Shown here: piece after piece, positions 1,835-53,525 of the stretch
Numbering within the stretch: the first letter of the stretch is position 1
How the letters are laid out: the number at the start of each line of letters is the position of its first letter
Origin: Alphaproteobacteria bacterium
GTDB lineage: Bacteria > Pseudomonadota > Alphaproteobacteria > JANQMY01
Assembly (NCBI GenBank): GCA_028289425.1
Contig: JANQPL010000016.1
Location: 124,001 to 188,000, forward strand
Length of the DNA: 64,000 nt
Direction of reading: 5' to 3'
Notes under the pieces: generated by a model
The model's database searches: none
Seen by the model: only the letters and a program-made list of their open reading frames with translations
Told to the model about the DNA's origin: nothing
Translations under genes and position numbers: made by a program

Positions 1835-3274
1835 TCAAAAAATAATCGGTACAAGGATCGTTGCGGCGGCGCCGATCGCCAACAGTCCCAGCAGGTTCAT
1901 GTAGATACCCGCGCGCATCATGTCGCGGATCTGCAATCGTTCTGAGCCGAACACAATCGCATTGGGTGGTGTGGCCACGGGCAGCATAAAGGCGCAACTT
2001 GCGGCCATGGCGGCCGGCGCGGCAAGGGTCAGTGGCGCGATGCCCGCACCGTCGGCGACCGCCGCGATCACGGGCAGAAAGGCCGCCGTGGTGGCGAGGT
2101 TGCTGGTGATCTCCGTCAGCAAAATGACCACGCCGGCGATCAGCAAAACGAAGATGAGGGAGGGTAGTATCGAGGCGTCGCCCAATTGGCCCCCCAGCCA
2201 GGCGGCAAGGCCCGTCTTGCTGATGGCGCCCGCAAGCGACAGGCCGCCTCCGAACAGAATCAAAACGCCCCAGGGCACTTTGCGCGTGTCGTCCCAGACC
2301 AGCAGGTTTCGGGCAGGCGCGACAGACCCGGCGGGAATGATGAACAACAGAATGCCGGCGGCGATGGCAATCCCGGGATCGGTTAAATTCGACAATCCGG
2401 GGACGGAGCTCAACAGCGGCCGCGTGATCCACAGAAGAGCGACCGACGCGAAGACAAGGCCGATGCGCCATTCCGCGGAAGATGCTTTGCCCAACGCATC
2501 GCGCGCCTCCTTCAATATCTGATGACCGGTACCCGGGTTTGCGGCCGGTGCGCTGCGATAGACAATCTGTGTCAGGACGATCCAACAGATGGGCAGCAGC
2601 ACCACGACTACCGGCATGGCCACCAGCATCCACTGGGCAAAGCCGATTTCGATATTGTAGGTCTCTTCAAAAAAACCCGACAGGAACGCATTGGGCGGTG
2701 TGCCCACCAGCGTGCCCATACCGCCGATGCTGGCGGAATAGGCAACGCCCAACAAAAGGCTTGTGGCAAATGCGCTGCGGACCGGGGCCTCGCTGTCTTT
2801 TTCACCGGTCACCACGGCGATGACCGACAAGGCGATGGGCAACATCATCATGGTGGTGGCCGTGTTGCTGATCCACATGCTCAAGAAAGCCGTTGCCAGC
2901 ATGAACCCGGCAACCAATCGGCTGGGGCTTGTCCCGGTACGAACGGCGATGTTGAGGGCAATGCGCCGGTGCAGATCCCAGCGCTGCATGGCGGCGGCAA
3001 TAAGGAATCCGCCCAGGAACAGATACACTAAGGGGTTGGCAAAGGGTGCCGCCGCTTCGCGGATAGGCATGATGTCCAGCAACGGAAATGCCGCCAGCGG
3101 AATAAGAGCCGTAGCGGAGATGGGGATGGCTTCCGTCGTCCACCACACGGCCATTAGCACGGCGACGGCCAGCGCCCGCCACGCTTCAGGCGCCAGCCCC
3201 TCCGGCGGGGGCACCAACAACACGCCAAAAAAGAGGAGGAGCCCGGCGATCAATCCGACCGGCACGTTGGCCAT
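1835..3274 (-). CDS. SLC13/DASS-family anion transporter
   Basis: This 479-residue polytopic membrane protein carries the two signatures of the divalent anion:sodium symporter family: WISNTATTMMMLP with SNT at 136-138, and a second repeat ITSNLATTAAFLP at about residue 390. These SNT loops bind Na+ and the carboxylate, phosphate or sulfate substrate in characterised members. About eleven hydrophobic segments are visible, starting at GLIAGLLLFFGVLLV. It lies 23 bp downstream of the lipoprotein gene at 3298 on the same strand, so the two are probably cotranscribed. Dicarboxylate or sulfate is the likely cargo; the sequence does not decide which. The start is the ATG at 3274. Confidence 0.88.
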   Translation of the reverse strand: MANVPVGLIAGLLLFFGVLLVPPPEGLAPEAWRALAVAVLMAVWWTTEAIPISATALIPLAAFPLLDIMPIREAAAPFANPLVYLFLGGFLIAAAMQRWDLHRRIALNIAVRTGTSPSRLVAGFMLATAFLSMWISNTATTMMMLPIALSVIAVVTGEKDSEAPVRSAFATSLLLGVAYSASIGGMGTLVGTPPNAFLSGFFEETYNIEIGFAQWMLVAMPVVVVLLPICWIVLTQIVYRSAPAANPGTGHQILKEARDALGKASSAEWRIGLVFASVALLWITRPLLSSVPGLSNLTDPGIAIAAGILLFIIPAGSVAPARNLLVWDDTRKVPWGVLILFGGGLSLAGAISKTGLAAWLGGQLGDASILPSLIFVLLIAGVVILLTEITSNLATTAAFLPVIAAVADGAGIAPLTLAAPAAMAASCAFMLPVATPPNAIVFGSERLQIRDMMRAGIYMNLLGLLAIGAAATILVPIIF

Positions 3275-3297
3275 GGCCTTGTAAATCCGCGGGCGCG

Positions 3298-4107
3298 TTA
3301 GTTGCCGCGCACCTTGGACTCAAGCTGGCGTAAATCCGTCTGCGCTTTTGAGATGAAGCGCTCTTTTTCTTCCACGAGCGGGCGGATGCGCGAGAGCATG
3401 TTTTGGATGCTCTGTTCGGTCTCATCGATATTGCCGCGTAGGATACCCAATTGCTGCGCGTCTTCCGACGCGATACCGCTCTCGAGCGGCAATTGCTCCT
3501 TTAGCGCCACCAAGTTTTTGTCTTCGCTGCGCAAGGACGATGCGGCCGCATTCAGCCCATTCAAATCCGACGTGACCTGGTTCAGGGCCGATTGGGTCGT
3601 GTTCCATTGGCCCATCAGCACGGGGTCGCCGGCAACGGCGCCCGCATCCAATTGCCCCACCAAAGCGTTTTTGGCGATCTCATATTGGGCAATGTTTTTC
3701 AGGTGCCGGTTTTGAACTTGGGAAAACTGCCGTTGGCTGATGGACGCGCGCGAGATCACCGCCTGCAAATTCTCTTGCGTGCTGGCGATGGTCAGCCCCG
3801 CCGGCGAATTGCTGGGCCGGACCGGTGCAAGCGCCACTGTTTGCTCAGCCACGTCGGAGGTTGTGTCTTGCGTTTCGGCCTCTGCCGTTTCTTCCGACGA
3901 TTTGGAGGACTCGTATTGAGGCCGATTGCGCACGGCTTCCCGGGGCCTTAAGCCCCCCACGCCCTGTTTAGAAACGCGCTTGCCCGACGTTTCTCGCGCG
4001 GATTCGCCTGTATCGCCGCGCTCGAACACGCCGGAAACGGTGTCGCAGGCGGAAAGTCCCAGGCAAAGGAGGCCGATCGTGCCCCATGTGGTGACGATTT
4101 TGTGCAT
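3298..4107 (-). CDS. Lipoprotein with coiled-coil region, unknown function
   Basis: This is a 269-residue protein of unrecognised family. A short N-terminal helix ends in the lipobox L-S-A-C (Cys21), indicating lipidation and export. Residues about 25-100 are polar, low-complexity and rich in Ser, Glu and Thr, probably a flexible tether. From about residue 105 to the end it is Gln/Glu/Lys-rich heptad-like helix (for example SQRQFSQVQNRHLKNIAQYE, and a final EKERFISKAQTDLRQLESK), predicted to be an extended coiled coil. It is adjacent to the SLC13 gene, but nothing ties the two functionally. It could be an envelope structural or scaffold lipoprotein, which is inference. Confidence 0.7.
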   Translation of the reverse strand: MHKIVTTWGTIGLLCLGLSACDTVSGVFERGDTGESARETSGKRVSKQGVGGLRPREAVRNRPQYESSKSSEETAEAETQDTTSDVAEQTVALAPVRPSNSPAGLTIASTQENLQAVISRASISQRQFSQVQNRHLKNIAQYEIAKNALVGQLDAGAVAGDPVLMGQWNTTQSALNQVTSDLNGLNAAASSLRSEDKNLVALKEQLPLESGIASEDAQQLGILRGNIDETEQSIQNMLSRIRPLVEEKERFISKAQTDLRQLESKVRGN

Positions 4108-4327
4108 GGCCGCGCTCTACCCCCGATATTTCACCGAAATGCTGAAAACTGCCGCCAGATCTTACAGGCCCCCGACAAAGACGCAAATTGGGCAATTCGG
4201 CGCAAAGCCGGCGTGCGTGCCAGGCCGTGCTTGCCTTCGGCAGGGCTTCCCGTTAATGTCGCGCGCTTTCAAAGCAGCCCCTAAAGGCTCAGGCCGCGGC
4301 CGGTCGTCGACCGGCCAGGCAAATCAG

Positions 4328-4404
4328 GCACCGGTAGCTCAGCTGGATAGAGCACTAGACTACGAATCTAGGGGTCGGGAGTTCGAATCTTCCCCGGTGC
4401 GCCA
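4328..4404 (+). tRNA. tRNA-Arg (anticodon ACG)
   Basis: A full cloverleaf can be folded. The acceptor stem GCACCGG pairs with CCGGTGC, the D arm is GCTC/GAGC, the anticodon stem CTAGA/TCTAG encloses loop CTACGAA with anticodon ACG, and the T arm is GGGAG-TTCGAAT-CTTCC with one G-U pair. The CCA tail is encoded at 4402-4404. It reads CGN arginine codons after A-to-I editing of the wobble base. The sequence just downstream changes to lower GC and unknown genes, so this tRNA may mark an integration site. Confidence 0.97.
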
Positions 4405-5000
4405 CTAGCGTTTCTTGGCGAGCGTAGCGAGCACTAGAAATGCTTGTGTCCGCCGAAGCTTTAGCGAAGGCGGACCGGTTTCGTAACCTCTACAAGTTGG
4501 CCCACCATTCCGGACACATAGGTGACAGTCCAGCCTACGCTAAAGCTTCGGTTTGGCGGGTTGTACCGGAGACACGGGTAACACATTTGGATTGACACAC
4601 CGCGCAAGCGCTGGCGCTGCGGGATGGGTTAGCCGGGGTTCGAGTCTTCTGGTTTGATCATCAGAATATCCAAGATCGTATTGCATAAAACTGACGAGCC
4701 AGATTTGGTCGTCGGCTTGCTCGACGCCGACCTATTGGCCGGCTTCCATTCTCCATAGCTGGCACGTTTAATAAGAGGGCGAAACAAAGATTGAGCTGAA
4801 GATCATCTGGCAATAGCTGTGTTATAGCGATTTTGTTCGACCGTATACTGTGGAATTGACATAGGAGAAGACTCAGCTTCTAAGGAAAAATGGACTTGAT
4901 GAGTTTGAGCGCGCTTATGACCTCGCTGCGAGCTGTGCCGACATGCTCAGTGTTTTAAAGCCGGAGCTTAATCACCAGCGGATCAAAAAGGCTGCAAGCA
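4405..5000. other. Gene-poor stretch after the tRNA with palindromes and IS-like end motifs
   Basis: No convincing complete gene is visible here. A hairpin GTCCGCC (4448-4454) / GGCGGAC (4469-4475) lies near the start. The 14-mer CCGAAGCTTTAGCG at 4453-4466 recurs as its exact reverse complement at 4538-4551. On the minus strand two related 18-mers, TGTCACCTATGTGTCCGG (4510-4527) and TGTTACCCGTGTCTCCGG (4566-4583), match at 14 of 18 positions and are 56 bp apart. From memory, such motifs resemble sequence at the ends of IS481-family elements, but no transposase remains. A stretch around 4638-4652 loosely resembles a tRNA T-arm. Confidence 0.5.
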
Positions 5001-5011
5001 ATGCCGTATGA
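4865..5011 (+). pseudogene. Possible 5'-damaged small gene upstream of the 262-residue protein
   Basis: After the in-frame TAG at 4862-4864, an open frame runs to TGA at 5009-5011 and reads like protein: KNGLDEFERAYDLAASC, ADMLSVLKPELNHQR, then IKKAASNAV. The only ATG in this frame lies two thirds of the way in. A well-placed AGGAG sits at 4863-4867, and an ATG at 4890 is in another frame that stops after 22 codons. A single-base frameshift near 4885-4892 would join that ATG to the good frame. The end overlaps the next start by 11 bp, as in a coupled gene pair. It may be a degraded first gene of a two-gene unit; function unknown. Confidence 0.35.
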
Positions 5012-5789
5012 TTTTCATGACCTACATGGAGAGTACACAGATCTCTATCAGGCGGTGATGTATTCCAATTCTACTTTCTTCGAAGAAAATCTACGTCGAT
5101 TTCTTGAGTTTATTGATGAACAGGCACCATACGCCGACGTAGCGGTCGAACTACAAAAGCTTGCTGACTTTCCGCCCTGGTACGAGACCCAAAAACAATC
5201 CAAGGGCAGTATGGTTGGTTCAGGGCGCTTAGAATGGCCCAAAAAACTTGATGCCAAGCTCGGGATGCAGATCGCCCTTTTTAAGCATTTTTCTGAGAAA
5301 AACGAGGCTTACATAGATTTTGGTCATCATTTTCTTGGGAGCAGCACGCATTTTGATGACATGGTGTCAGAAATTGGCTCGCAACTAATCGATACATTCT
5401 CGCGGGATTTTGAGCGTCTTGTCAGGCGGCGCCATGAGGCGATTTCGCAAGGGCGGGACATCCAATATGCCCCGGCTTCAGATCGCATTGTTCGTCTGGA
5501 CCACAATTCTCAAACCTATCAAGAAGCTATCGAATCTCTGAACGAACTCGTTCAAGAAGTTGCGAAAAGCAACTCGCTTGGTGGAGATCCTGAGGAGAAA
5601 GAGCGAACCCTAGCAGAGTTAAAGGCCGTACAGAGTTTGCTATCTGCTGTGAGTATCCGTGTAAGTCCTGTCATGACCACACTAAGGCCGGCGATTGGTT
5701 GGGTTGTGGGAACGGCCGGTGCAGGCATTATTGGAACACTTGCATACAACGCTTGGGAAAAGATCATGTTGCTGCTGGGGATTAGTTGA
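5001..5789 (+). CDS. Hypothetical protein with C-terminal membrane segment
   Basis: This is a 262-residue protein of no family I can name. The N-terminal two thirds is mixed, charged and aromatic (for example DFPPWYETQKQ and HHFLGSSTHFDDMVSEIGSQ). A C-terminal module of about 90 residues starts at LDHNSQTYQEAIESLNEL, continues with a Gly-Asp-Pro-Glu-Glu-Lys acidic turn and helix, and ends in the single hydrophobic helix IGWVVGTAGAGIIGTLAYNA. I recall similar L-D-H-N-S...EKE...L modules at the C-termini of other unannotated bacterial proteins, as a membrane-anchoring tail. Codon use is AT-richer than the flanking core genes, consistent with acquisition. It begins inside the end of the damaged frame at 4865. 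Confidence 0.65.
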   Translation: MPYDFHDLHGEYTDLYQAVMYSNSTFFEENLRRFLEFIDEQAPYADVAVELQKLADFPPWYETQKQSKGSMVGSGRLEWPKKLDAKLGMQIALFKHFSEKNEAYIDFGHHFLGSSTHFDDMVSEIGSQLIDTFSRDFERLVRRRHEAISQGRDIQYAPASDRIVRLDHNSQTYQEAIESLNELVQEVAKSNSLGGDPEEKERTLAELKAVQSLLSAVSIRVSPVMTTLRPAIGWVVGTAGAGIIGTLAYNAWEKIMLLLGIS

Positions 5790-6042
5790 CTTGAACCGCT
5801 TGTGTCTGAGTAAAACACCGGATAGGGACCAGTGGATTCAAGATATTGGCATGTCTGCCCTATGAGGTACGATATATTGTTGGTTTGGCGGCGGAATCAG
5901 CGTAATATTCCTTACACCAACTTTGTCAACTAATACTCTTGCGCAGAGAACCAATTTGGTTTACGACAATTTCCTCGGTACTGGGACTCCTCAATTTTCC
6001 GACTTGTAGAAAATTAAAGGAGTCCCAGCCCTTGGGGGCATG
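5790..6042. other. Non-coding gap with a long hairpin
   Basis: No gene is visible. A strong hairpin lies at 5981-6028: CTGGGACTCCT pairs perfectly with AGGAGTCCCAG (11 bp), and after a small internal mismatch AATTTTC (5993-5999) pairs with GAAAATT (6009-6015), leaving a 9-nt loop. It sits between the plus-strand gene ending at 5789 and the minus-strand small gene ending at 6043, where a shared terminator would be expected, but no T-tract follows on either strand. Confidence 0.55.
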
Positions 6043-6156
6043 CTAGTGGATACTCAAGGCCGTTGCCCATCCGAACGCTGCAACAGCAGTTAGGGTAACA
6101 ACGAAAGTAGCCACAACCCACTTAACCCACCAAGGATCATGCTTACCATTATCCAT
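6043..6156 (-). CDS. 37-residue single-pass membrane protein
   Basis: This small gene reads MDNGKHDPWWVKWVV followed by a hydrophobic helix ATFVVTLTAVAAFGWATAL and ends S-I-H. The short charged N-terminus followed by W-W-V-K-W and one transmembrane segment is typical of small bacterial membrane proteins. The start is backed by a textbook ribosome site: ACGGAGG lies 5 bases before the ATG complementary to 6154-6156. Its leader contains an inverted repeat, GCCAGCG/CGCTGGC, around 6194-6222. No family is recognised. It may be a toxin-like or regulatory small membrane protein, but no antitoxin partner is evident. Confidence 0.6.
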   Translation of the reverse strand: MDNGKHDPWWVKWVVATFVVTLTAVAAFGWATALSIH

Positions 6157-26834: not shown

Positions 26835-26855
26835 TTTGAGTTTGACCTCAGCTTG

Positions 26856-26927
26856 GCCGGCCCACTCCCCCTCCCAACCACCCGAACCAGGGTACCTTGG
26901 GGTGATTGGGAGGGGGAGTGGGCCGGC
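26856..26927. repeat. Long GC-rich hairpin element, copy 1
   Basis: The left arm 26856-26883 and right arm 26900-26927 are inverted repeats matching at 27 of 28 positions (outer GCCGGCCCACTCCCCCTCCC pairing with GGGAGGGGGAGTGGGCCGGC). The 16-nt loop holds CCAGGGTACCTTGG, itself nearly palindromic. A clear relative lies at 53374-53449 with the same arms and loop. Here it sits 22 bases upstream of the paiB start, inside its probable 5' leader. Confidence 0.8.
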
Positions 26928-40778: not shown

Positions 40779-41501
40779 GTGATCGAGCTGGAAAAACAGG
40801 GAAACGTCTTCACTCTCACCATGAATGCGGGTGAAAACCGCTGGAACACCACATTCGTGCGGGAAATCGCCAAGGCGCTGGACGAAGTGGAGGCCTCGAG
40901 CGGTCCCGCTGCCCTGATCACCCGGTCGGCCAATGAAAAGTTCTTTTCCAACGGGCTCGATTTAGATTGGGTACAGGCGCCCGACGATCATCCGGAAGGC
41001 GGCGACCGCATGGTCTTCGGCAATGAATTCATGGGGCTGATGGGCCGCATCATCACCCTGCCGGTGCCGACCATCTGCGCGATCAACGGTCATGCCTTCG
41101 GGGCGGGGTTCATGACGGCTTTGTGTCACGATGTGCGCATCCAACGGATCGATCGGGGCTTTGTGTGCGCCAATGAAATGCAGCTTGGCATGGCGATCCC
41201 GCTGCCGGAACTGGCGCTCTTCCGGCACAAGCTGCCCGCCAATGTATTTTACGAAACGGTGCAGTTGGCGCGCCGCTGGACCGGGGAAGATGCGCTTGGC
41301 GCCGGCATTGTTCAGCATGCGGTGGACCTCGACAAGATTCTTCCCTTGGCGGAAAAACTGGCCGAGGAGTTGGCGCCGCTTGCCGCTAATCGCGAGGTGT
41401 TTGGCGGCCAAAAAGAAAAACTGTTCGGCAAGGGCGCGATCCTGAACGCCGAACACGGCGCGGCCCACCTGTTGAAGAACGCCGACAAATATCGGGGCTA
41501 G
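40779..41501 (+). CDS. Enoyl-CoA hydratase/isomerase family protein
   Basis: This 240-residue crotonase-fold protein starts at GTG 40779, eight bases after AAAAGGAG. It shows FFSNGLDLDWV (the first oxyanion-hole segment), TICAINGHAFGAGFMTALCH (second oxyanion hole) and the substrate region NEMQLGMAIPLPEL. The usual hydratase Glu pair is not clearly present, so isomerase-like activity as in ECI/peroxisomal DCI homologues is as likely as hydratase. Its last 101 bases recur at 44030-44130, on the far side of a three-gene insert. It is divergent from the deacylase gene. Confidence 0.87.
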   Translation: MIELEKQGNVFTLTMNAGENRWNTTFVREIAKALDEVEASSGPAALITRSANEKFFSNGLDLDWVQAPDDHPEGGDRMVFGNEFMGLMGRIITLPVPTICAINGHAFGAGFMTALCHDVRIQRIDRGFVCANEMQLGMAIPLPELALFRHKLPANVFYETVQLARRWTGEDALGAGIVQHAVDLDKILPLAEKLAEELAPLAANREVFGGQKEKLFGKGAILNAEHGAAHLLKNADKYRG

Positions 41502-41525
41502 AAAGTGTCGGCCGGTGAAGCACTT

Positions 41526-41873
41526 TTATTCAAGGGCAATCAGTTTATTGGGAGTGATGGATTGTGAGCCCGTTAGGTCATCCATCTTCACGTTGTAGTT
41601 GCCGTTGTTGTATTTTCTGACAATGCGCGCTGGCCAGATTCGAGGCTTTGCGTTTTCGTCGCTGGACAGAAACGCCACTTTTTGTCCCGGTGTAAATGCA
41701 ATTTCTGCCGCATGACATTCTTCGGGTGACTTGCGCAGCAGGCTGCACAGGACGAGTACGGCGGTCCCTTCAACGGAGATCAAACAATCCGGTCCGGACT
41801 GGTCCTCGAACGTGGCGGCGACCGCACTGTCGGAATGGCAGAGATATACTGTTTCACCTGGCTGAAATGGCAT
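41526..41873 (-). CDS. Small protein with tandem SH3/Tudor-like repeats, unknown
   Basis: This 115-residue protein is built of two related halves. Residues about 3-15 FQPGETVYLCHSD and about 59-71 FTPGQKVAFLSSD share the pattern F-x-P-G-x-x-V-x-x-L-x-S-D. The second half continues PARIVRKYNNGNYNVKMDD, which reads like a Tudor/agenet or SH3-like barrel. The ATG at 41873 has GAGGGAGT upstream. There is no signal peptide, although both neighbours in the unit are lipoproteins. No exact family is recognised. It is the last gene of the three-gene minus-strand insert between the 101-bp repeats. Confidence 0.7.
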   Translation of the reverse strand: MPFQPGETVYLCHSDSAVAATFEDQSGPDCLISVEGTAVLVLCSLLRKSPEECHAAEIAFTPGQKVAFLSSDENAKPRIWPARIVRKYNNGNYNVKMDDLTGSQSITPNKLIALE

Positions 41874-41887
41874 TTGCAGATACTCCC

Positions 41888-43180
41888 TCAGTCACCAGCG
41901 ATTGCCTTCAGCTGCCGTTCGTTTGCGTCAAACACTGCTTTTGCGGTTTCCCGCGCTGCCTTCAGGTTGGCAGCATTGTCCTCTAACTCCGCGGCCTCCG
42001 CTGAAGCGAGTACAGCGCTGGCGATCCGTCGTAAGGCAGCGCGAAAATGGGTCCGGCTGAGTTCCTCCGTGTGAATTGTATTTCGGGCTTCGACAATTCT
42101 GCGATTGTCGTCTAACACTTTGCCGGAAGTTTGCCCCCCGCCTTCCGAGCTACCTGCCGGCTTATTGTCCGAGGAAATTGCAGTGATCGGAACGCCTGAC
42201 CCTGAAGCGAGTAATTGCAGCGCGGAAATAGTTAGTTTGCGTGCAGTGAGGGCTGTTGCTCTTGCATCAAAAACCAGTCCCTTCACAGAGAAATCGGCGG
42301 TACTGTTGAGCTTCACGACCATGTCGGTCGAGCCGCCAAACCCTAATCCCCTCGCGACGTTGTATTTCTTTTCCCAGTGCTCTCGTTTGGCATCCGCTGC
42401 TGCAAAGGCAAGGTCTGATTGAGCGAGTGTTCGCCCGTCGACGCCAAGAAATCCTCGCCCCTCGGCTGCAGCCAACGCCAACCCTCGAATCGATTGGGCA
42501 GTCGACAAACTTAGCTGCTTTCGCATCAACAAAGATTTGGCGTCTTTGTCGGCTTTGGCGAATGGCGCCTTGTAAGCCTCAAAAACAGCTGTTGCTTGAT
42601 CTGTTAGTCCCTCCCCCACTCGACGTTCGAAAGCGATCAACGCACCTTGATACTTAGCGATAGCTGCTAGACGGCGCTGTTCGAAATCGTGAGTGTTATC
42701 GGAGCATTCACCATCAGGACAGGCTATATTTTGGAATCGATTCACAAGTTCCGTCAATGTGCCAAAGCTGTGTTTAGATCCATCGGCGCAGTCTTTCAAA
42801 ACATCGCCGGATTCGATCACATTTTGGATTTGTTCACGCGACTCCTTCGAAGCACTTATCGCAGTTTTTATGGGTCGTGCTTGCTCATCTTCGGCAGTCT
42901 TTATCTCGCGCTCAGCCAAGTCTATTGCGATTGTGTAAAATCTGACGCGGCCCGCATGATAGTTCCTGCAAATGTTGTCGACCACTGAAATGACCGACGA
43001 CTGATCCCCGGCTTCCGCCAGTGCCACTATTCGGCCTAGCGCGATGTCCTCTTGTATCTTCATGAAGTACTGAGGATTCAGGACGTCAACTTCCACATTA
43101 AGCCGGGCGCACGCCGCAATGCCCAACGAGGTAAGCACTGATAGATGACAAAGAATCCTCAGTTTACGGTGGAGAACCAT
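41888..43180 (-). CDS. Lipoprotein of unknown function, helical
   Basis: This 430-residue protein has the lipobox I-A-A-C (Cys24), so it should be a lipoprotein. The mature part is almost entirely charged helix: residues 35-120 (MKIQEDIALGRIVALAEAGD, AEREIKTAEDEQARPIKTAI), a Cys-bearing loop about residues 150-160 (IACPDGEC), then AIAKYQGALIAFERRVGEGL. A beta-like segment MVVKLNSTADFSVKGLVFDA precedes a Ser/Gly linker (SDNKPAGSSEGGGQTSGK) and a final Ala/Arg/Glu coiled-coil-like helix. No family is recognised. It overlaps the upstream lipoprotein gene by 22 bp and has AAGGAAG before its ATG, so the two are coupled. Confidence 0.72.
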   Translation of the reverse strand: MVLHRKLRILCHLSVLTSLGIAACARLNVEVDVLNPQYFMKIQEDIALGRIVALAEAGDQSSVISVVDNICRNYHAGRVRFYTIAIDLAEREIKTAEDEQARPIKTAISASKESREQIQNVIESGDVLKDCADGSKHSFGTLTELVNRFQNIACPDGECSDNTHDFEQRRLAAIAKYQGALIAFERRVGEGLTDQATAVFEAYKAPFAKADKDAKSLLMRKQLSLSTAQSIRGLALAAAEGRGFLGVDGRTLAQSDLAFAAADAKREHWEKKYNVARGLGFGGSTDMVVKLNSTADFSVKGLVFDARATALTARKLTISALQLLASGSGVPITAISSDNKPAGSSEGGGQTSGKVLDDNRRIVEARNTIHTEELSRTHFRAALRRIASAVLASAEAAELEDNAANLKAARETAKAVFDANERQLKAIAGD

Positions 43181-43935
43181 GCATCCGCTTCCTTCGTAGT
43201 GTCGAATGATATTTGCTTGTCTGGTTCCAGTGCGATGGCAATCGCGCGCAAGATTGCCATTTCACTTCGGCTATTTGGCGATTCATCGCTTTCAAGCTTT
43301 GCGAAGCGGGCCGTCAAATCCTCAACGAGCGCATTTCGTTCCCTGTTAAGTAGCGCCTTTTCGGCCTTGAAACGTTCTGCCGACTCAAACGTATCTTTGT
43401 TGATGAGATAATTGACACTTTGAATTGCCACTTCGCTTTCGGCGATCGCACCAATTGTTTCAGCAATGGCGTTCGCATTTGTACTCAGTATGATGACAAA
43501 GGCACTAAAGTCATCATCCGGAGTATTCGGGGACAATGGGATGACCTTGATAGCCTGCTGGTAGGCCTCCTTGCATTCATCTTTTTCGGTGTTCGAATCG
43601 TCCTTCGTGGGACACGTTAGGGGGAAGATCTTGTCGGGTCCGAAACCAAGACCGCCGGATGGTTTGTAATCTTCAGATTTCACTTCGTTGAAAAAGAAAT
43701 CGACAGCGCGTTCGTCATATGTGCCCGCAATGTAACGAGCATTCGCTAAGCCGGTTTTGGCGTTTACCTTTAACCTGAAGATATTGACAATTCCGGCAGG
43801 GTTTTCCGCCGTCGGTCTGCCAACTGCTGCAAAATAGTGCTTTTCGTCGACAGAAGCGGCGCACCCTGTCAGCAAGATCACTGAACTTACCCAAATGGAG
43901 ATGGTGCCAAACAGCCAATTTCCGGATGTTGCCAT
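43159..43935 (-). CDS. Lipoprotein of unknown function
   Basis: This 258-residue protein has a hydrophobic N-terminus and lipobox L-T-G-C (Cys25). Residues 35-75 are beta-like and contain IVNIFRLKVNAKTGLANARY; a Cys pair lies in FPLTCPTKDDSNTEKDECKE; then a hydrophobic beta stretch FSAFVIILSTNANAIAETIG; then a long charged helix SAERFKAEKALLNRERNALV. No family is recognised. It is the first gene of the three-gene unit, lying just inside the right-hand repeat copy. It and the 430-residue lipoprotein probably work together at the same membrane; this is inference from coupling. Confidence 0.7.
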   Translation of the reverse strand: MATSGNWLFGTISIWVSSVILLTGCAASVDEKHYFAAVGRPTAENPAGIVNIFRLKVNAKTGLANARYIAGTYDERAVDFFFNEVKSEDYKPSGGLGFGPDKIFPLTCPTKDDSNTEKDECKEAYQQAIKVIPLSPNTPDDDFSAFVIILSTNANAIAETIGAIAESEVAIQSVNYLINKDTFESAERFKAEKALLNRERNALVEDLTARFAKLESDESPNSRSEMAILRAIAIALEPDKQISFDTTKEADAWFSTVN

Positions 43936-44029
43936 CGCCCATATCCCCCCTCTAATAATAAAACCCTACAGAACTCTTATAGGTAGAGTCAATGATTTGC
44001 TCTCGCAAAGGGCGAGCGGGCTAACAACC

Positions 44030-44130
44030 TTGGCGGCCAAAAAGAAAAACTGTTCGGCAAGGGCGCGATCCTGAACGCCGAACACGGCGCGGCTCACTTG
44101 TTGAAGAACGCCGACAAATATCGCGGCTGA
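44030..44130 (+). pseudogene. Detached 3'-end copy of the enoyl-CoA hydratase gene (direct repeat)
   Basis: These 101 bases match 41401-41501, the end of the hydratase gene, at 96 positions. The frame is kept: the copy encodes the same final 33 residues and ends TGA instead of TAG. Every other difference is silent (GCC/GCT, CTG/TTG, CGG/CGC). Similarity stops exactly at the stop codon and again just before the leucine/phenylalanine codon at the left edge. There is no start codon or upstream gene body. It is best explained as a target-gene end carried or left by an insertion of the 2.5 kb between the copies. Confidence 0.85.
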
Positions 44131-44220: not shown

Positions 44221-45396
44221 ATGAAACCTCTCGACGGTGTGAAGGTTATCGACATGACGCATGTCCTGGCGGGACCCTATTGCGGGTACCAGCTTGGGCT
44301 GCTGGGTGCGGATGTGATCAAGGTCGAATCCCCTTATGGCGATATGATCCGGCTTTGGGGGGACGACCCGGCCCAGCTGGAGCAGGGGATCACGAACAAT
44401 TTCGCGGCGCAGAATGCAGGCAAGCGAAGCCTGTGTGTCGACATCAAAAAGCCGGCGGGTGCGGAAATCGTCCGTAAGCTTGCGGATCAAGCGGATGTCT
44501 TCATCGAAAACTTCCGTCCGGGAACGATGAAGAAATTCGATCTGGATTACGACACAGTCATGAGCCGGAACGGCCGGATCATTTACGTGTCCATTTCCGC
44601 ATTCGGCCAGGATGGCCCCCATGGCCACCGGCCCGGCTTCGATGATGTGATCCAAGCAACGTCCGGCTTCATGTCGATCAATGTGCGCGGCGACGGGCCG
44701 ATCCGCACGGGCGGGCCGGTGCTCGACTATTCCACCGGCATGCAGGCGGCAGCGGCCACCATGGCGGCGCTGTTGCTGCGCGACAAGACGGGCGAGAGCC
44801 AACGTGTGGACATTGCCATGCAAGACGTGGCCATGCTGTTGATGAACCGCAATACCAGCGCCGCGGCCACCACGGGCAGCGCCTTGCCGCCGCCGGGCAA
44901 TCGTGAAGGCACCATGCTGGGCCGCTTCAAGACCAAGGATGGGTATGTGATGTTGGCAGGCTATTTGCCGCACCACTGTAAGTCGATTTGCAAAGCGATC
45001 GGCTTGGACGATCTGGCGGCACTCGACACTGCCACTTTTTATCAGAGGGCAGAGGAAGTTGAACGGCGCGTTGAAGAACGTCTGCTCGAAAAATCCTCCG
45101 AGGAGTGGGACGGGATCTTCAGCAGGGCCGGCGTGGTGGCCGGCGGCGTGCGGGACCTCGTGGAAGTTTTTGAGACCGGCCAGCCGAATGCGCGAGGCCT
45201 TGTCAGCGACGTCGGCAGTGCCGCAGGCCCTTTCAAAGTGACGACCGCGGGTTATCGCATCAACAATCAGGTCTTTGCGGCGGATAGGGACTTAGGGGTA
45301 CCGAAGCTGGGCGAGCAGACCGGCGCCATATTGGCCGATCTGGGCTATGAGGACGGCGATATCCGCGAGTTTTTGGAGGCCGGCGTAGTGAAGTAA
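44221..45396 (+). CDS. CaiB/BaiF-family CoA-transferase
   Basis: This 391-residue family III CoA-transferase opens MKPLDGVKVIDMTHVLAGPY followed by C-G-Y-Q-L-G, then GADVIKVESPYGDMIRLWGD, QNAGKRSLCVDIKKPAG, VFIENFRPGTMKKF and the catalytic-region PGFDDVIQATSGFMS, in which Asp forms the CoA-anhydride intermediate. It moves CoA between organic acids. GGAAGGA precedes the ATG. It was probably the direct neighbour of the enoyl-CoA hydratase before the insertion, together suggesting an acyl-CoA pathway. Confidence 0.92.
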   Translation: MKPLDGVKVIDMTHVLAGPYCGYQLGLLGADVIKVESPYGDMIRLWGDDPAQLEQGITNNFAAQNAGKRSLCVDIKKPAGAEIVRKLADQADVFIENFRPGTMKKFDLDYDTVMSRNGRIIYVSISAFGQDGPHGHRPGFDDVIQATSGFMSINVRGDGPIRTGGPVLDYSTGMQAAAATMAALLLRDKTGESQRVDIAMQDVAMLLMNRNTSAAATTGSALPPPGNREGTMLGRFKTKDGYVMLAGYLPHHCKSICKAIGLDDLAALDTATFYQRAEEVERRVEERLLEKSSEEWDGIFSRAGVVAGGVRDLVEVFETGQPNARGLVSDVGSAAGPFKVTTAGYRINNQVFAADRDLGVPKLGEQTGAILADLGYEDGDIREFLEAGVVK

Positions 45397-53149: not shown

Positions 53150-53525
53150 GGGGGGTCTCGCAAAAAGCCTACTTTACCCCTTCGTACGGAGGAGGCTAAT
53201 CCTGATTTGTGATACACTGCCCAGAAGGGGAGGTCTTGGTGCAGGAGCAGGCCATGGCCGCATTCATCAATCTGTCCCCGTCATCCCGAAATGGCACAGC
53301 GCTCACGCACGATTGCGGAGGGGGTCTCACAAAATTGTGGATCAACCCCATGCACCCATTGTCTATTGCACCCGGCCAGCCCACTCCCCCTGCCCAACCA
53401 CCCGAACCAGGGTACCCTTGGGGTGGTTGGGCAGGGGGAGTGGGTGGCCTGGACCGTCAACATCGCATCAACCCCATGCACCCATCTCGTCAAGGGGTTA
53501 AAACGATAAAAACCAAGGGGGTGGC
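53150..53525. repeat. Long hairpin element, copy 2, flanked by 19-bp direct repeats
   Basis: This is a gene-free gap. The left arm starts at 53374 (GGCCAGCCCACTCCCCCTGC) and the right arm ends at 53449; 24 inner pairs are perfect (CCCACTCCCCCTGCCC...), with a loop of 17 nt, gaaccagggtacccttg. Arms and loop match the element at 26856. Outside it, ATCAACCCCATGCACCCAT occurs exactly twice, at 53341-53359 and 53467-53485, as direct repeats bracketing the hairpin. Left of this the gap shows nothing recognisable. Confidence 0.75.

Follow-up and report, generated by a model that had tools for sequence, protein, structure and literature searches.

In this study, we analysed a direct repeat at the 3' end of an enoyl-CoA hydratase/isomerase family gene in a 64,000-nucleotide stretch of DNA from an alphaproteobacterium (assembly GCA_028289425.1, contig JANQPL010000016.1, positions 124,001 to 188,000 of the forward strand), hereafter the window. 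The final bases of the hydratase gene recur downstream as an orphaned gene end without a gene body upstream, and a segment carrying neither integrase nor transposase lies between the two copies (Table 1). The CoA-transferase family III gene that follows the orphaned end was probably the direct successor of the hydratase gene before the insertion.

The hydratase gene end and the inserted segment

The two copies of the hydratase end are identical at 96 of 101 bases. The mismatches comprise 41465 C/T, 41469 C/T and 41495 G/C, which are the three coding differences and are all silent, and AG/GA at 41500-41501, where the stop codons TAG and TGA differ. The translation GGQKEKLFGKGAILNAEHGAAHLLKNADKYRG* is common to both copies. 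The repeat, which has an abrupt beginning within the gene and terminates with the stop codon in both copies, is the strongest direct repeat of the window (BLAST within the window, E 7e-41). Neither a further occurrence in the 5.4-Mb genome nor more hydratase sequence beyond the 101 bp was found. An earlier note on this DNA had reported the recurrence with 96 matches, the silent coding differences and the two stop codons, all of which were borne out by alignment and translation. Its statement that the insert holds no integrase agrees with the open reading frames (ORFs) and with searches of Pfam, PHROGs and NCBIfam, none of which revealed one.

The insert is single-copy in the genome, and its G+C content (0.512) is lower than that of the hydratase (0.596) and CoA-transferase (0.600) genes. 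Three cargo genes are tightly packed on the minus strand as an operon; gene 2 overlaps gene 1 by 22 bp and sits 14 bp upstream of gene 3. Lipoprotein signal sequences were read at the start of genes 1 and 2. The identity of the cargo was searched overall in Pfam, NCBIfam, PHROGs, PADLOC, PDB, plasmids, phages and viral contigs. No significant match to gene 1 was obtained among the families or databases searched, and gene 2 had no significant relatives in 385 genomes of the class, plasmids, viral contigs or family libraries. Gene 3 matched nothing in Pfam, NCBIfam, PADLOC, PDB, plasmids or viral contigs, and its single PHROGs match was non-significant (E 0.27). For two cargo proteins, the quality of the structure models built from single sequences (predicted local distance difference test, pLDDT, 54 and 42) was too low for structure search; the low-confidence model of the gene 3 product (pLDDT 54) suggests a beta-rich N-terminal part. 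An element carrying a hydratase tail was sought in viral contigs and none was found. Judged by its distinct composition and orphan genes, the insert appears to be foreign.

Recurrence of the scar in the genome

Unique direct repeats of at least 40 bp, with at least 80% identity and 0.2-40 kb apart, were scanned in 2.44 Mb (about 45%) of the 5.4-Mb genome. Gene calls in the scan were mechanical, and the names of host genes other than the hydratase were read from the sequence. The scan yielded 11 repeat pairs. Six of these, including the hydratase pair, consist of a protein-gene 3' end, cargo and an orphan copy of the end, and one has the same layout at a tRNA gene (Table 1). Across the seven scars the repeats are 47-155 bp long and the cargo measures 0.7 to 4 kb. 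No 5'-end case was recognised among the 11 pairs, and no integrase or integrase relic was detected in any of the seven cargos. Only five phage-integrase domain matches occur in the genome, none of them among the scars found.

Repeat pairs that involved intergenic palindromes, paralogues or repeat proteins did not qualify as cases. An eighth pair, in which an IS200-like/Y1 transposase gene (171 amino acids, aa) lies between two 100% identical 52-bp copies of the 3' end of a neighbouring gene (G000:C19:127099-128064), was left out of the count because it touches dispersed repeats; in G001, the sole congener compared, the flanking genes are about 0.75 kb closer together. A control scan that covered 41 other genomes (466 kb in all) and Sinorhizobium pSymB (850 kb) gave no short gene-end case, and one 441-bp pair in S. 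meliloti pSymB, among apparently paralogous genes, was left unclassified.

Table 1. Features of the hydratase locus (positions in the window) and further gene-end scars of the same genome
Feature	Position	Strand	Details
Enoyl-CoA hydratase/isomerase family gene	40779..41501	+	host gene, 240 aa; PF00378 2e-22; 3' end is the left repeat copy
Left repeat copy	41401..41501	+	final 101 bases of the hydratase gene; stop TAG
Inserted segment	41502..44029		2,528 bp
Cargo gene 3	41526..41873	-	115-aa orphan protein; no significant family match
Cargo gene 2	41888..43180	-	430-aa orphan, predicted lipoprotein (from sequence); lipobox IAAC
Cargo gene 1	43159..43935	-	258-aa orphan, predicted lipoprotein (from sequence); lipobox LTGC
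Right repeat copy	44030..44130	+	orphaned hydratase 3' end; stop TGA
CoA-transferase family III gene	44221..45396	+	391 aa; PF02515 9e-99; best relatives found only 44% identical
199-aa membrane protein gene end			repeat 155 bp, 95%; cargo ArsR and AHSA1
sdhB end			repeat 58 bp, 88%; cargo pentapeptide-repeat protein
Acyl-CoA dehydrogenase end			repeat 93 bp, 87%; cargo metabolic cluster (TetR, acyl-CoA dehydrogenase, GST, others)
comM end			repeat 50 bp, 88%; cargo PIN-domain protein
Glycosyltransferase-like gene end			repeat 69 bp, 91%; cargo AAA/OLD-like ATPase with weak matches to several defence ATPase profiles
tRNA-Pro 3' end	G000:C7:248685-249801		decayed 47-bp copy, 91%; 1-kb insert with one 219-aa gene, no integrase

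Empty site and parallel insertion in the congener

The congener provides an empty site for one of the sister cases. In G001 the acyl-CoA dehydrogenase end occurs once, the match to the flank of the orphan copy follows 43 bp on, and the 4-kb cargo is absent. Direct repeats and a single-copy empty site in a relative, the features by which a long target duplication is recognised, thus occur together at this locus. A three-way comparison with G001 did not single out the native acyl-CoA dehydrogenase end. Only one sdhB end is present in G001, and the same holds for the compared stretches of three more distant genomes; the region further downstream is different in G001.

At comM, G001 carries its own cargo, a resolvase-family recombinase and a helix-turn-helix protein, and beyond it a repeat of the comM end that is 561 bp long and 94% identical. 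This insert differs from that of the window's genome, and comM has therefore received different cargo in the two species.

A palindromic element, GGTGACAGTGCACTtAATT..., lies directly past the stop codon in two scars, G000:C4:18612-19989 and G001 comM (L259, L260 near 1740), where the duplicated segment ends with it. Its half-sites are dispersed; 12 kb of the G001 contig C163 contain eight matches. The palindrome family GGTGACAGTGCACT, which stands beside two of the scars, was considered as a recombination site and rejected, as it is a dispersed repeat that is absent from the hydratase locus.

Silent differences between the gene ends

When the six protein genes are taken together, 28 of the 37 coding differences between copies are silent. 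The neutral expectation is 10.1, and a target duplication with the upstream copy under selection would give 14.9 (P = 5e-6). In the comM pair of G001, 24 of 28 differences are silent (P = 4e-6). This excess implies that both ends diverged while they were parts of working genes, and the copies at the pooled loci and at G001 comM are best regarded as alleles of two functional genes. The simplest reading is that one gene end would have been supplied by a relative together with the cargo. The claim of the earlier note that both copies of the hydratase end evolved as coding sequence draws its strength from these pooled and comM data; the hydratase locus alone points in the same direction (3 of 3 silent versus 1.56 expected) and is not significant.

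Origin of the insert

The sequences directly show the anatomy of the locus, its recurrence at seven loci of this genome, the one empty site and the coding-constrained divergence of the copies. We judge it slightly better than an even call that the insert is foreign DNA captured, without an integrase, by homologous recombination at the 3' end of the resident gene. A DNA fragment from a relative would have carried the 3' end of the donor hydratase gene and whatever lay downstream. Its ends would have been trimmed, the fragment would then have been circularised, and one RecA-type crossover within the shared gene end would have integrated it as a Campbell-like insertion-duplication. In homology-facilitated illegitimate recombination, the variant with linear DNA, the resulting scar would be almost identical. 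An intact resident gene with a donor-derived tail would remain, followed by the cargo, and the old 3' end of the resident gene would be orphaned ahead of the original downstream gene. The donor, the circularisation, the role of RecA and the order of events we infer. A host gene survives intact only when the fragment includes the gene's 3' end, and this would account for the location of the scars at 3' ends. The model predicts that the host gene stays whole, that an orphan tail is left, that repeats vary in length, that no integrase is present and that mainly events at 3' ends survive; all of this is seen. At the hydratase locus, the border of the insert is homologous to the resident gene and no recombinase is present, as expected of a homology-based insertion. 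The model also predicts that homology stops where the downstream sequences of donor and recipient part, and in most of the present cases this point is the stop codon.

Several points weigh against this explanation. RecA is expected to act inefficiently on 50-100 bp of imperfect homology. All seven scars lie at 3' ends, one of them of a tRNA gene, which is equally typical of integrases. The locus is seen in assembled contigs, which might be misassembled. The comparison with other genomes is thin: 7 cases in 2.44 Mb versus 0 in 1.32 Mb of control sequence have a conditional probability of about 0.05 under equal rates, so the enrichment of gene-end scars in this genome is only suggestive. No genome with the cargo beside the same gene, as expected of a donor, was found, and no cargo relatives were detected in the collections searched. 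For the hydratase locus itself, the evidence is weakest in that an empty site is missing. Hydratase orthologues with 60-78% identity were found in 26 other genomes (78% in G010 and alphaproteobacterium Mf 1.05b.01), and none of these relatives (>60% identity) lies beside a similar CoA-transferase gene or has a match to the cargo. The search through hydratase or CoA-transferase relatives yielded no empty site because none shares the gene order, G001 has no close match to either gene, and its orthologue of the neighbouring amidohydrolase is at the extreme end of a contig.

The main rival is an integrase-dependent mini-island, of which the insert would be a remnant or a trans-mobilised form, with the hydratase 3' end carried in its attachment site (attP) and the integrase lost or supplied from elsewhere. 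We consider this rather unlikely. Integrases also choose the 3' ends of genes and tRNA genes, and the tRNA-Pro copy resembles a classical attachment site, spanning the anticodon region to beyond the 3' end as an attB site does; for these reasons an integrase origin retains some probability. The gene is moreover rebuilt with a synonymous end, as at icd, and the comM cargo of G001 encodes a resolvase-family recombinase. However, small resolvases usually do not integrate DNA, and a 561-bp repeat far exceeds an att core. Seven different targets would require several integrases, every one of them lost, and neither the cargos nor the positions of the genome's integrase domains supply a trace of these. 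An insertion with long target duplication, in which the cargo doubled the recipient's own gene end as restriction-modification genes do in Helicobacter pylori, would look the same, with cargo flanked by long direct repeats (PMC1643837, PMC3154945). However, a duplicated recipient end would drift neutrally, and the silent excess, pooled and at G001 comM, rejects this course followed by decay; we regard the explanation as improbable.

Two further explanations have very little in their favour. A tandem duplication of the hydratase region could leave an orphan end as the second gene copy decayed, but the lack of hydratase sequence past 101 bp, the compositionally foreign orphan cargo, the abrupt borders of the repeat and the empty site at the acyl-CoA dehydrogenase sister case make it highly improbable. 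An assembly artefact or a chimera of strain variants might be suspected in a genome of 20 contigs; it is scarcely credible for seven loci on long contigs, with differing repeat lengths, 3-13% divergence and coding cargo, and with an independent case in another assembly (G001). The interpretation given in the earlier note is supported in part. Its proposal of an insertion that carried its own version of the end is well supported, mainly from sister cases (the empty acyl-CoA dehydrogenase site and the silent excess). Of the two routes it named, homologous sequence from a relative fits better than an element integrating at the gene end because the targets are seven different genes, the repeats vary from 47 to 155 bp (561 bp in G001) and the cargos are free of integrases.

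Other repeats

Some repeats seen during the analysis concern other sequences. Window positions 26855-26927 and 53374-53444 belong to one dispersed repeat family, which has 15 similar sites in the DNA scanned, and a short intergenic dispersed repeat at about 49081-49222 matches about a dozen places in G001. At G000:C3:626300-626986 and C4:20593-21602, hairpin clusters are repeated either side of single small genes (by eye, a GIY-YIG-like ORF and a SnoaL-like ORF) and are intergenic rather than at gene ends. In G001:C163 (L211), at about 1950-6114, a roughly 3.9-kb insert lies between two 26-bp copies beside a methyltransferase gene and is absent from the window's genome.

Implications

How small accessory inserts without mobility genes, of which there are many, reach bacterial genomes is an open question. 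We tentatively suggest that this lineage may regularly gain accessory genes as small, integrase-free inserts homing to the 3' ends of ordinary genes through a homologous tail, a general recombinase-free capture route whose footprint can be read from single genomes. The accessory cargo would include toxin- and defence-like genes, metabolic clusters and orphan lipoproteins. The footprint in one genome (gene, cargo, orphan tail and silent differences) separates homology-driven capture from target duplication; given more genomes, it also distinguishes capture from the work of integrases. Such footprints lend themselves to counting across genomes. Should the rate of about three per Mb seen here apply to the lineage, single-crossover capture would rank among the main routes by which it gains small cargo.

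Comparison with known systems

The elements e14 and phage 21 swap the 3' end of the protein gene icd for a synonymous version and displace the old end. The hydratase locus is alike in that a gene 3' end is duplicated with synonymous changes at both borders. In contrast, e14 and phage 21 encode an integrase and are larger than the inserts described here, and the hydratase insert has none. In H. pylori, long target duplication likewise places cargo between long direct repeats at polymorphic insertions, as far as described in Nobusato 2000 via PMC1643837; by that account it is unlike the present case, in which the divergence between copies is that of two coding alleles and the cargo is of many kinds.

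Homology-facilitated illegitimate recombination is known from Acinetobacter, Pseudomonas stutzeri and Streptococcus pneumoniae (PMC2884548, PMC5361080), and has been used to explain the displaced 3' ends of old genes in type VI effector arrays of Vibrio cholerae (PMC5361080). It shares one homologous anchor, non-homologous cargo and displaced 3' ends with the scars described here. However, it typically deletes recipient DNA at the far junction, whereas the recipient gene end is retained here. In open papers, to which the search was confined, no description was found of inserts that recur without an integrase at the 3' ends of ordinary genes and bring donor-derived tails.

An experimental precedent for single-crossover capture comes from Escherichia coli, where DNA with homology to the lacZ 3' end on one side was offered. 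Of 60 selected clones, 56 had duplicated the gene end (by 109-950 bp in the 14 that were sequenced), which was ascribed to recircularisation and a single crossover, and the remaining four were deletion-type homology-facilitated illegitimate recombination (PMC3240628). As in our scars, a foreign segment lies between two copies of a gene 3' end, the duplication is variable in length and no integrase is involved. That system used a laboratory plasmid with cloned lacZ homology, whereas the homologies here are natural, diverged and 47-155 bp long (561 bp in G001), and involve many genes.

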